A stretch of 56,542 nt of DNA, from IMG/VR virus record IMGVR_UViG_3300017765_000004, positions 1 through 56,542 of that record, one strand, 5' to 3'. Of the stretch, positions 30,348-51,392 are shown piece after piece (the stretch's first letter is position 1; each line of letters starts with the position of its first letter). The notes below the pieces were generated by a model that saw nothing but the letters and a program-made list of their open reading frames with translations, was not told the origin of the DNA and searched no databases. This DNA comes from a virus. The position numbers and the translations under genes were made by a program.

Positions 30348-30803
30348 ATGCGCTCTTTTAACCAGTTTATATCAGAAACAGCAACATCATCAGCTACGAA
30401 TAGTGTTGGCACTGATGGATTTACTAATGACTCAAATCCATCAGGACCTGTTGCTGGTTTTGATAAAAAATTGTTTAGGGGTGATGAAGATCTTCTATCA
30501 CAAGATTATCAGACAGCTGCAGAGACTGGTGAAAATAGATATAGATTTTCAAACATATATCCTGTAATGAAAGTTACTCTTGGTAATAATATGGGTGATG
30601 GCCCATCAATTGACTCCATGGTTGCAGCATCAAAAGAATTTGTCAATAAGATGGAGCAAACATCCCATGATACAGTAAAAAAGTATTTTACAGAGTTTAA
30701 AGAAGAGTGGAGTAATAAATATAAAAAGAGTATTGACTGCTCTAATCCTAAGGGATTTTCTCAAAAAGCACATTGTGCTGGTAGGAAAAAGAGATCAAAA
30801 TGA
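30348..30803 (+). CDS. Candidate head-internal protein with gp23-arm-like N-terminus
   Basis: The start is ATG 30348, two bases after the fibre stop and nine bases after GGGAG (30334-30338); a longer in-frame start would run through the fibre gene. The 151-residue product begins MRSFNQFISE, like the MKTYQEFIAE capsid-targeting peptide of T4 internal proteins, with an I-x-E site that gp21-type protease could cut. The next residues (SSATNSVGTDGFT, then GPVAGFD) match the arm of this phage's own gp23 (SSAANSAGTGGFT, GPVAGFD). The C-terminus is basic with Cys/His (IDCSNPKGFSQKAHCAGRKK), a likely nucleic-acid-binding tail. I infer a packaged or capsid-bound minor protein. The stop overlaps the next ATG. 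Confidence 0.75.
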   Translation: MRSFNQFISETATSSATNSVGTDGFTNDSNPSGPVAGFDKKLFRGDEDLLSQDYQTAAETGENRYRFSNIYPVMKVTLGNNMGDGPSIDSMVAASKEFVNKMEQTSHDTVKKYFTEFKEEWSNKYKKSIDCSNPKGFSQKAHCAGRKKRSK

Positions 30804-32656
30804 AGTGTAAACCAGGTTACTATTATTGTTACACTGATAAAAAGTGTAAAAAAATGCCAATGGGATATCACATTGGACGTGGTGGATATCTTGCTAAAGA
30901 TGATAATGAAAACAGTGAGAATGGTAAGAAAAATGGTAATGGTAAAAATGGTAATGGAAATGGTCACTCAAATGGCAATGGTGGTGGAAATGGAAATGGA
31001 GGAGGTAATGGTGGTGGAATGAGTGAGGCATCCAATCCTCGCATTCCCAGAAAACCAGGACAACCTGCAAATTCTAAAAAACACTCTGATCTCTACACTG
31101 ATGAGAATCCAAAAGGCACCATTCATGGTCTTGGATTTAAAGATGTTGCTACTGCAAAAGCATCTGTAAGTAAAATACGTAATTCATCAAGATCTCATGC
31201 TCATAAAATTCAGGCAGCTGTTGCCATGGAACAAAGAGCAAGAGAGATGGGTAAAACTTCAGAGGCAGCAGTTTACAGAAAGTTTATCAACTCAATGAAG
31301 GAGAAAACTAAGAAAATGAATGAATCTCACATTGATGAAGATCTAAGAGATTGGTTTGGGAAATCTAAATCAAAAGATGGAAAACCTGGTTGGGTTCAAT
31401 CAGATGGGTCTCCATGTGCAAATGAAAAAGGTGAAACAAAAACCCCCAAGTGCTTCTCATCTCAAAGATTAGCAAGTCTTAAAGCACAAGGTTCCAAGGG
31501 AAAAGCAAAAATTGCTGCAGCAGTCAGAAGAAAAAGAGAACAGGATTCAGGACAACAATCAAAGTCTGGAGGAGCTAAACCCACCATGGTTAAAACATTT
31601 GCTAAAAAAGATGACTATAAGAAGCATCCTTCAGGAGATAGATCTGAATCAACAAACTATGATCATCTTTCACCCATCTCAAGAAAAATTCTTGAGCAGA
31701 TTGATGGTGAGAGAGAACTGCAATATCTAGAGGAAAAGAATAAACCCACAAACCCATCACTGTGGTCAAGAGCAAAGGCACTGGCAAGATCCAAGTTTGA
31801 TGTGTATCCATCTGCTTATGCCAATGGTTGGGCTGCAAAGTGGTACAAGAAGAGAGGTGGTGGATGGAAATCTGTCAGTGAAGAAGTTGAAGTTAGTGAA
31901 GAAAGAAAACCAGGTGAGTCTCCTAAGGAATATGCTGCTAGAATGACCAAAAAGCATTCTGGTGGTAAGTCAAAGACTTATGATCCTATGAAGGACAAGA
32001 ACTTTGATCATGATAAGGCTGAAAGAACTCGCGGTTCTATGGAGGAAGAAGTAGTCAGTGAAGAAACATGTCCAGTCTGTGGATGTGATCCATGCCAGTG
32101 TTTGGAAGGAAATATTAAAGAGTCAGTAAGAATACCTGCACAAACAGGAAATGTCTATGCTGTGATCTTCTCGTGGAGAGCAAAGATGTATATGCTCAAA
32201 TTGTTCTTCCCTGAGATAAGAAAACCAAAGAGATCTGAAGTTGAGGATGCAATTCGTAAATTATATCCTGGTGCTACATTAAGGAGTTTCAATCTTACAC
32301 CATACCAACCAGGTGATTCATATCTTCATGCTGGAATGGATGAAGATATGGAGGAAGACAGCCTGGGAAAGCTTGAAGAGGGAACACCTGCATGGCAAAG
32401 AAAAGCAGGTAAAGACCCCTCAGGTGGTTTAAATCAGAAAGGTGTGGATTCTTACAGAAGAGCAAATCCTGGTTCAAAACTTCAAACAGCAGTCACTACA
32501 AAACCATCTAAATTAAAGAAAGGTTCCAAAGCTGCAAATAGAAGAAAGTCATTCTGTGCTAGAATGAAAGGTATGAAAAAGAGATTAACATCTGCTAAGA
32601 CTGCAAGAGATCCAGATAGCAGAATCAATAAGTCATTAAGAAAGTGGAATTGCTGA
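30800..32656 (+). CDS. Multi-module basic Cys/Gly-rich protein, function unknown
   Basis: A 618-residue protein whose ATG overlaps the previous stop (ATGA). Modules in order: a Cys-rich start (CKPGYYYCYTDKKCKK, 3-18); a Gly/Asn-rich linker (36-74); a basic helical segment; a DWFGKSKSKDGKPGW module with paired Cys near 186-225; a Lys/Arg-rich stretch; a SAYANGWAAKWYKKRGGGW module near 336-356; an acidic linker; CPVCGCDPCQC at 424-434, a possible metal-binding knuckle; and a C-terminal block from ~529 (PAWQRKAGKDPSGGLNQKG) ending KSLRKWNC that resembles DUF6321. These modules also occur separately in other phage proteins. No catalytic motif was seen. It precedes terminase by 7 bases. I infer a nucleic-acid-associated, possibly packaged protein. 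Confidence 0.7.
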   Translation: MKCKPGYYYCYTDKKCKKMPMGYHIGRGGYLAKDDNENSENGKKNGNGKNGNGNGHSNGNGGGNGNGGGNGGGMSEASNPRIPRKPGQPANSKKHSDLYTDENPKGTIHGLGFKDVATAKASVSKIRNSSRSHAHKIQAAVAMEQRAREMGKTSEAAVYRKFINSMKEKTKKMNESHIDEDLRDWFGKSKSKDGKPGWVQSDGSPCANEKGETKTPKCFSSQRLASLKAQGSKGKAKIAAAVRRKREQDSGQQSKSGGAKPTMVKTFAKKDDYKKHPSGDRSESTNYDHLSPISRKILEQIDGERELQYLEEKNKPTNPSLWSRAKALARSKFDVYPSAYANGWAAKWYKKRGGGWKSVSEEVEVSEERKPGESPKEYAARMTKKHSGGKSKTYDPMKDKNFDHDKAERTRGSMEEEVVSEETCPVCGCDPCQCLEGNIKESVRIPAQTGNVYAVIFSWRAKMYMLKLFFPEIRKPKRSEVEDAIRKLYPGATLRSFNLTPYQPGDSYLHAGMDEDMEEDSLGKLEEGTPAWQRKAGKDPSGGLNQKGVDSYRRANPGSKLQTAVTTKPSKLKKGSKAANRRKSFCARMKGMKKRLTSAKTARDPDSRINKSLRKWNC

Positions 32657-41932: not shown

Positions 41933-43378
41933 ATGTTCCAATCAGAACATCTGCAGGAAAAGTGGAGTCCACTTCTCGACTATGAAGGTCTTGATCCAAT
42001 CAAAGATTCACATAGAAGAGCAGTAACCGCTGTCCTGTTAGAGAACCAAGAAAAATTTTTAAAAGAAGAGCAAGCATTTGGATCAGGTATGAACCTGATG
42101 GAAGGACCTCCTGCTTCATCTGCTGCTAATAGTGCAGGCACAGGTGGATTCACTGGTGGTGCCACTGCTGCTGGTCCAGTAGCAGGTTTTGACCCTGTTC
42201 TGATCTCCCTGATCAGACGTGCAATGCCTAACCTGGTTGCATATGACCTGGCTGGTGTTCAACCAATGAATGGTCCTACTGGACTGATTTTTGCAATGAG
42301 ATCCAGAAAGGATTCTCAATCTGGCTCAGAAACCTTCTTTGATGAAGTAGATACAGCATTCTCTGGGCAGAATGTTGGACTGGGTCTTACTGCTGCCAAC
42401 TCTGCTGCACAGCAGGCTGTTGGTATGGGTACAACTTCACAAGGTGGAACTAATCCATCTGTACTGAACCCTGTTGGTGGTGCTGGTGATAACCAGGCTT
42501 ATAACACAGGCACTGGCATGACCACTGGTGAGGCAGAAGCCCTTGGCACAGTAGATGCTGATGGTGCCTTCAACCAGATGGCATTCTCAATTGAGAAAGT
42601 CACTGTAACTGCCAAGTCAAGAGCCCTGAAGGCTGAGTACTCACTGGAGCTTGCTCAGGACCTCAGAGCCATCCATGGTCTGAATGCTGAAGCAGAACTT
42701 GCTAACATCCTCTCTACTGAGATCCTTGCTGAGATCAACAGAGAAGTCATCAGAACAATCTACAAGGTTGCTGAGCAAGGTGCTGTTTCTAACACTGCCA
42801 CTGCTGGCATGTTTGACCTGGACATTGACTCCAATGGTAGATGGTCTGTAGAGAAGTTCAAGGGTCTTCTGTTCCAAATTGAGAGAGATGCTAATGCAAT
42901 CGCTCAAAGAACAAGAAGAGGAAAGGGTAACATGGTTATGTGCTCTGCTGACGTTGCTTCAGCACTGACCATGGCTGGTATCCTGGATTACACCCCTGCC
43001 CTGAACTCCAACCTGAATGTTGATGACACTGGCAACACATTTGCTGGCACCATCAATGGTAAGTTCAGAGTTTACATTGACCCATATGCTGCTAACCTGA
43101 CTTCAGCAAATGCTGCCTCTGCCTCTGGCAACCAGTATTATGTTGTTGGTTACAAAGGCACATCACCTTATGATGCAGGTCTCTTCTATTGCCCATATGT
43201 ACCTCTGCAGATGGTACGTGCAGTTGGAGAAGATACCTTCCAGCCCAAGATTGGCTTCAAGACCAGATATGGTCTGGTTGCCAACCCATTTGCTGAAGGA
43301 ACCACCCAAGGTCTGGGTAGACTGCAAGTCAATAGCAACCGCTACTACAGAAGAGTTGCTGTTAAGAACCTCATGTGA
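41933..43378 (+). CDS. 23: gp23 major capsid protein
   Basis: The 481-residue HK97-fold capsid protein (T4 gp23 is 521). Typical blocks are AGPVAGFDPVLISLIRRAMP, VAYDLAGVQPMNGPTGLIFA and KARALKAEYSLELAQDL-like KSRALKAEYSLELAQDLRAI. The N-terminal ~56 residues are the helical scaffold-contact peptide; LME followed by GPPASSAANS is a plausible gp21 cut. Codon use is the most biased in the window (many CTG, GAC, GCC), as for a very highly expressed gene. A strong terminator follows. The arm just after the inferred cut resembles the protein at 30348. Confidence 0.98.
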   Translation: MFQSEHLQEKWSPLLDYEGLDPIKDSHRRAVTAVLLENQEKFLKEEQAFGSGMNLMEGPPASSAANSAGTGGFTGGATAAGPVAGFDPVLISLIRRAMPNLVAYDLAGVQPMNGPTGLIFAMRSRKDSQSGSETFFDEVDTAFSGQNVGLGLTAANSAAQQAVGMGTTSQGGTNPSVLNPVGGAGDNQAYNTGTGMTTGEAEALGTVDADGAFNQMAFSIEKVTVTAKSRALKAEYSLELAQDLRAIHGLNAEAELANILSTEILAEINREVIRTIYKVAEQGAVSNTATAGMFDLDIDSNGRWSVEKFKGLLFQIERDANAIAQRTRRGKGNMVMCSADVASALTMAGILDYTPALNSNLNVDDTGNTFAGTINGKFRVYIDPYAANLTSANAASASGNQYYVVGYKGTSPYDAGLFYCPYVPLQMVRAVGEDTFQPKIGFKTRYGLVANPFAEGTTQGLGRLQVNSNRYYRRVAVKNLM

Positions 43379-50753: not shown

Positions 50754-51392
50754 ATGAAAACTTTTTCAGAATTCATTGCAGAATCAGAACAACAGTCAGG
50801 TGCTCTTGCTGCACACTTAGCTAGAACTGCTGCAGATAGAGCATCACAGTCTGGAACTGTTGGTGGAACTGAAAAGAAGTTTGAGAAGAGACCTTCACTT
50901 GGTTTAAAACGACCATCATTTAAGAGAAAGGATAAGATAAAAGTTAAAGGACCAAGAAAACCAGCACCATATGGAAGTGGACCAAGACCACAAAAGGCAT
51001 TACCTGGATCACGTGATGATGTGCAAAAGGTAAATGTGAAGGTTGAAAAACCAGCAGAGAAGAAACCAGCACTGAAACCTTCTACCTCAAGCACATCCAT
51101 TGCTAAGAGATCATCACAAAGTATTAGAAATGCTGGTAAGAATACAGCAGGATCTGTTCAGAAAGCAAGAGTCAGAGTTGAACCTCAACAAAGACCTGCA
51201 CTGCAACCTGCTGCTAAGAGGCCAGCATTAAGACCTGCAGCAGAAAGAGGTAAGATAAAACCAGCAGCATCAAGACCTGCACTTCCTCCTGGATCAGGGA
51301 ATCCAATATCACCAATGGTAAAAGCAGCAGCAAAACAAGCAGCACTCAAGGCAGCACAACAGAGAAAGGCACTACCTCCTGCCAGATCATAA
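50754..51392 (+). CDS. Candidate internal head protein with capsid-targeting peptide
   Basis: A 212-residue protein beginning MKTFSEFIAE, eight of ten residues identical to MKTYQEFIAE, the capsid-targeting peptide of T4 internal proteins IPI-IPIII, with the gp21 cut expected after IAE. The rest is strongly basic, Lys/Arg/Pro/Ala/Ser-rich and likely disordered, with repeats of RPAL-type and PAAxRPAL-type units, suited to bind DNA. I infer that it is packaged with the genome, matured by gp21 and injected. It has its own late octamer between terminators while its neighbours look early. In T4 such proteins protect DNA or act on the host; its own target is unknown. Confidence 0.78.
   Translation: MKTFSEFIAESEQQSGALAAHLARTAADRASQSGTVGGTEKKFEKRPSLGLKRPSFKRKDKIKVKGPRKPAPYGSGPRPQKALPGSRDDVQKVNVKVEKPAEKKPALKPSTSSTSIAKRSSQSIRNAGKNTAGSVQKARVRVEPQQRPALQPAAKRPALRPAAERGKIKPAASRPALPPGSGNPISPMVKAAAKQAALKAAQQRKALPPARS

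Follow-up and report, generated by a model that had tools for sequence, protein, structure and literature searches.

The small gene and its surroundings

The window, i.e., the entire 56,542-nucleotide stretch of viral DNA that was analyzed (IMG/VR record IMGVR_UViG_3300017765_000004), carries a small gene, P0001, within a structural cluster of a T4-like cyanophage, where it is flanked by the last tail-fiber gene and the gene for a DUF6321 protein, upstream of gp17 (Table 1). The gene order is identical in S-SM2 (SSM2_107 to SSM2_110), with SSM2_108 as the counterpart of P0001. The translation opens with MRSFNQFISETATSSATNSVGTDGFTNDSNPSGPVAGFDKKLF, the stop codon occupies positions 30801 to 30803, and the C terminus is rich in Cys, His, Lys, and Arg (CSNPKGFSQKAHCAGRKKRSK), in agreement with the basic Cys/His tail mentioned in a preliminary description of this DNA. 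In T4, targeting by the capsid-targeting peptide (CTS) is determined by residues 4 and 7 and its processing by residues 8 and 10, and the motif of the gp21 protease is L/I-X-E (PMC9026906). The window protein has phenylalanine at positions 4 and 7, and its targeting-like peptide ends with I8-S9-E10.

Table 1. Features of the window discussed in the text, all on the + strand.
Feature	Position	Strand	Remark
Arm-bearing protein P0001, whole gene including stop	30348..30803	+	151 aa
Capsid-targeting-like peptide MRSFNQFISE (F4, F7, I8, E10)	30348..30377	+	predicted gp21 cut after E10
gp23 N-fist-like arm, residues 11-39, TATSSATNSVGTDGFTNDSNPSGPVAGFD	30378..30464	+	
Conserved middle segment DLLSQDYQT..RFSNIYPVMKV..GDGPSIDSMVAASKEFVNKM	30489..30650	+	no database family
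Exchangeable basic Cys/His tail	30684..30800	+	separate small protein in other phages
Multidomain basic neighbor protein	30800..32656	+	phrog_727, DUF6321
gp23, major capsid protein	41933..43378	+	Pfam PF07068 (Gp23), E 2.5e-147
gp23 residues 58-87, matching arm GPPASSAANSAGTGGFTGGATAAGPVAGFD directly after NLME	42104..42193	+	aligns with T4 gp23* start (66 onward)

Searches of Pfam and NCBIfam with the window protein returned no family, and a sequence search of the PDB gave nothing meaningful (best E 0.25). The Pfam Gp23 capsid domain did not match it either, so it does not qualify as an HK97-fold capsid protein of the gp23/gp24 kind. Its AlphaFold model is poor (pLDDT 58, pTM 0.24), with the arm disordered. 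A late-promoter-like pattern occurred at chance frequency in the window and was not found in the T4 stretch. The neighbor protein consists of small modules, which other cyanophages carry either alone or joined to arm proteins, and it resembles a chain of interchangeable head modules. Elsewhere in the window, positions 50754 to 51392 (+) encode a Lys/Arg/Pro/Ala-rich protein of 212 aa with no NCBIfam match and a capsid-targeting-like start (MKTFSEFIAE), possibly another head-internal protein.

The arm resembles the N-fist of the phage's own gp23

When the window's own record was searched with the small protein, only the protein itself and a single gp23 stretch were retrieved (42110-42202, 58% identity, E 1.7e-6). 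Aligned arm against arm, the two sequences scored 88, compared to a mean of 26.3 and a maximum of 60 in 20,000 shuffles of the same composition; the whole small protein against the whole gp23 scored 89, compared to a maximum of 63 in 5,000 shuffles. The peptide, its I-S-E site, and the gp23-like arm of the preliminary description were thus all recovered, and the similarity lies far above the shuffled level that it had named as a check. The residues before the gp23 arm, NLME, also fit the gp21 motif. From the placement of L/I-X-E motifs in both proteins, we infer that gp21 cuts each of them directly before the arm. In T4, residues 66-91 of gp23* form the N-fist (for its biology, see PMC9958956 and PMC7136217), to which, as judged by alignment, the gp23 arm of the window corresponds.

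Relatives keep the arm at three loci

Relatives on viral contigs have in common the targeting peptide, the arm, and a strongly conserved middle, with Q52, Q55, T56, P72, D89, A94, and S95 invariant across 41 relatives. The C terminus is exchangeable: some members end in a basic Cys/His tail, others in a short FKDFMLE sequence or in pieces of the DUF6321-type neighbor; for instance, the SNPRIPRKKGQP segment of the neighbor protein is fused to arm proteins in L033, L048, and L102, and its CP.G.YYC segment in L135 and L139. The Cys/His tail can also stand alone behind a targeting-like start of its own (e.g., MKSFKQFQESWSNKYKKSIDCSNPKGFSQKAHCAGRKKR), as in Bellamy gp122 (L097, 5004-5159), which lies between tail fiber and gp17 like the window gene; similar loci include L057-L076. 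Between the window gene and its relatives, dN/dS was 0.01-0.15, and the arm is kept across the viral family under strong purifying selection.

The targeting peptide is present in 28 of 39 aligned family members. Its key positions are conserved among these, with F/L at position 4 and F/Y at position 7 in 28/28, L/I at position 8 in 25/28, and E at position 10 in 27/28. A shared arm behind a predicted gp21 cut, proposed in the preliminary description for the window protein, holds family-wide, and the arm likeness on which that proposal depended is kept by relatives at three loci: among 72 placed loci, 41 are between gp16 and gp17, 22 at gp61/nrdA, and 5 beside gp23, with 4 unassigned. Most members at the gp61 locus have no targeting peptide and begin at the arm (e.g., M-NVGNGGYTQAA..GPNAGFD); on viral contigs, the start Met precedes the arm core by 1 to 3 residues, L118 excepted. 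S-SKS1, also at the gp61 locus, has a different short start that ends in L-K-E. Because most gp61-locus members keep the arm without the targeting peptide, it is the arm itself that is conserved and not merely the cut site.

These observations bear on an alternative in which the arm is a recognition region for gp21 or the core, and the protein a protease substrate, competitor, or timer of gp23 processing that does not bind the shell. In both proteins, indeed, similar residues (often xPTN) come after an L/I-X-E site, and gp21 would be their common enzyme. However, T4 specificity is described as residing in a short L/I-X-E motif, the likeness extends about 29 residues past the cut to GPVAGFD, and most gp61-locus relatives, as well as the T4-GC 426 proteins described below, retain the arm although they have neither the targeting peptide nor the cut site. 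We consider this alternative unlikely.

Small-protein arms partially track their own gp23

Across 24 phages, the small-protein arm scored 0.529 against the gp23 arm of the same phage, compared to 0.414 after free permutation and 0.452 after permutation within class, with p=2e-5 each; these p-values are approximate since the sequences are mutually related. The tracking persisted without the strongest pairs and without the conserved GPxAGFD end. Composition bias was rejected as its cause, given an own-pair excess of 0.117 compared to 0.011, about a tenth, for composition-matched shuffles. A chance or low-complexity likeness of Gly/Ala/Ser/Thr-rich segments might be suspected of an arm so rich in small residues, but same-composition shuffles never attained the observed score and composition alone gives only this tenth of the own-pair excess, leaving chance a negligible explanation. 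The tracking is partial: among 12 phages of the window family, the own gp23 ranked first of 12 for just 4 proteins, one of them the window protein, and second for S-SKS1.

At identical aligned residues, own pairs used the same codon in 135/330 cases (0.41) and cross pairs in 2362/6053 (0.39); in S-SM2, only 5/19 identical residues had the same codon. Codon sharing is thus no higher in own pairs than in cross pairs, which makes recent gene conversion or copying unlikely, and matching at the protein level is the simplest reading of the tracking. Consequently, the duplicated gp23 N terminus considered in the preliminary description stands only as a possible old event. Could such an old duplication have left an arm with no function of its own, the likeness being a relic or a product of gene conversion? 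The gene adjoins gp23 in 5 window-family loci, and in G049 the small-protein and gp23 arms are near-identical. On the other hand, a neutral relic would decay instead of tracking its own gp23, and neither the low dN/dS, the codon comparison, nor the presence of the arm on unrelated bodies agrees with a relic, which we regard as quite improbable.

The arm occurs on unrelated bodies, some reported in virions

A profile search revealed more small proteins that carry the arm on an unrelated body, usually encoded just upstream of gp61. They include proteins of T4-GC 426 (S-SM1_197, Syn19_180, P-SSM7_198, and S-SSM5_185) and others (P-RSM4_198, P-TIM68, RN05-S, S-SSM7_213, Sf-FS3_184, S-CAM9_158, S-CREM2 gp160, and S-SCSM1_97), and the T4-GC 426 query matched in 287 phage records. 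In public records (NC_019444, NC_047719, NC_015281, and others) and in phrog_696, small proteins with the arm go by the name "major head protein"; their gp23 resemblance is limited to the arm. A rule of precisely one additional arm protein in each genome did not hold: most complete cyanophage genomes tested had one, contig G039 had two, and in the complete genomes of P-SSM2, Bellamy, S-SZBM1, and S-CREM1 the arm was seen only in gp23. The function would thus be dispensable, replaceable, or too divergent in these four phages.

The published virion proteome of S-CREM2 includes ORF160, identified by 7 unique peptides (13.1% coverage; Table 3 of PMC10665884). Its authors warn that separation from the virions may have been incomplete for some of the proteins detected. 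The ORF spans 128342-129235, with an in-frame arm match at 128393-128476, and its product matches phrog_727 (E 9.1e-49). S-SCSM1_97 bears the product name "virion protein" in its record, a label that presumably derives from the mass-spectrometry proteome of this phage (PMC9602691). Neither protein has the body of the window protein, and both thus support the arm class and not the window protein directly.

T4 gp61.1 has the same layout

The design extends well beyond the single window of the preliminary description and includes T4 gp61.1 (MKTFKEFIKEDMVAGDSGGNPENISIGTTSGAVVNKGPEQIPKKKKEESKEKEE), encoded immediately upstream of gene 61. A targeting-like MKTFKEFIKE is followed by DMVAGDSGGNPENISIGTTSGAVVNKGP.., a T4-type N-fist, and then by a charged tail. 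The best PDB sequence match of gp61.1 was T4 gp23 58-94 (E 0.0067), and the alignment with this segment scored 82, compared to a shuffled maximum of 47. One paper lists gp61.1 only as "conserved hypothetical". Among T4-like phages, a T4-type N-fist query matched 1861 places in 1452 records. The second such place in VR25 is the gp61.1 homologue, which as a query gave 2834 places in 1471 phage records, gp23 included. The match to gp23 is family specific, with within-family mean scores of 58 and 88 and a cross-family value of about 26. Within Straboviridae, own-pair tracking was weak (p=0.053 by identity, 0.009 by BLOSUM). In some T4-like phages (L281-L288 and L290), a gp61.1-type arm and tail form the C terminus of a longer protein, and these arms are mostly preceded by a possible gp21 site, L-F-E or I-K-E (e.g., ALPLFE-DMVAGD), as if they were released by cleavage.

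A possible N-fist surrogate inside the head

We favor, with a probability of roughly 60%, the reading that the window protein resides inside the head and, once cleaved by gp21, exposes a stand-in for the gp23 N-fist. The targeting peptide would carry the protein into the prohead core, where gp21 would cleave after I-S-E and create a new N terminus nearly in the register of gp23*. The exposed arm could then act at sites where the gp23 N-fist acts, most likely by docking, during or after expansion, in N-fist grooves that hold no gp23 N-fist, such as those at the portal-facing edge and at the vertices. The middle and the basic tail would remain inside the head, perhaps near the DNA. This reading is favored by the arm match beyond shuffles, the retention of the arm at three loci, the retained CTS determinants, the tracking, the presence of the arm on unrelated bodies, two arm proteins with different bodies that have been reported from virions, and the layout of T4 gp61.1. 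Against it stand the partial tracking, its weakness in Straboviridae, the four genomes with no second arm protein, and the gp61-locus members with no targeting peptide, whose route into the head it leaves unexplained. The capsid-arm mimic of the preliminary description is thereby supported in part, through arms that track their own gp23 and two arm proteins with unrelated bodies reported in virions.

A different use of a packaged protein would be antidefense, in which the protein is injected as a decoy that imitates part of gp23 and titrates a host sensor or a gp23-directed effector. T4 internal proteins, which share only the CTS, are described as a defense against host restriction enzymes (PMC3012670), and hosts are known to sense capsid proteins (PMC9712102). 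The variable tails and bodies of the arm proteins would suit such a role as well, but the tracking of the own gp23 requires no host sensor, and, unlike T4-type internal proteins, for which high diversity is described, arm proteins occur widely across two families of phages. We also know of no sensor of the N-fist, and we consider the decoy improbable, slightly more so than a role in gp21 recognition.

More tentatively, and at somewhat less than even odds, T4-like phages in general may encode a dedicated N-fist surrogate (gp61.1 and its cyanophage counterparts, the window protein included) that fills vacant N-fist sites around the portal and at the vertices, forming one functional class that seals the shell or tethers it to the DNA. 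T4 gp61.1, annotated without function, gains a testable role, as do the cyanophage proteins labeled "major head protein" or "hypothetical". If docking is true, it would show how a T4-type shell may handle arm sites emptied by symmetry mismatch, and it would provide a short peptide of natural origin that covaries with gp23 between phages in its fit. With a CTS and a capsid arm combined in hundreds of T4-like phages, this potentially overlooked class of head proteins is directly testable.

Comparison with known systems

In the open-licence literature searched, no description was found of a head protein that combines a CTS with a copy of the N-fist, which is weak evidence of novelty. Soc (outside) and DarA/Hdf of phage P1 (inside) are accessory proteins at capsomer junctions, for which a copy of the capsid protein's own arm is not reported in the literature examined. 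T4 IPI-IPIII have a 10-residue N-terminal CTS with the same key positions and L/I-X-E end as the window protein; according to reviews, the CTS is all that the internal proteins have in common, whereas the window protein adds the N-fist copy. The gp23 N-fist (T4 gp23* 66-91) resembles the window arm in sequence, of the cyanophage type, and in its predicted register after the cut, but in gp23 it is followed by an HK97-fold capsid domain, which the window protein does not have. Proteins of phrog_696 / T4-GC 426 (S-SM1_197, Syn19_180, and Syn9 gp190) carry the same cyanophage N-fist arm at the N terminus, yet have no targeting peptide and a body unlike that of the window protein; S-SM1_197 matches phrog_696 with E 1.9e-92, whereas the window protein matches it only over its own residues 14-42 (29 residues, E 4e-4). 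T4 gp61.1 and its Straboviridae relatives (phrog_1823) share with the window protein a CTS-like start followed by a copy of the N-fist of their own gp23 family, which is T4-type in gp61.1 and cyanophage-type here. The two proteins align weakly (score 33, little beyond the CTS), so their bodies do not count as homologous. Their loci also differ, the window gene lying between tail-fiber genes and gp17, but the locus upstream of gene 61 is shared by gp61.1 with many cyanophage arm proteins, and 22 relatives of the window protein lie at gp61/nrdA.
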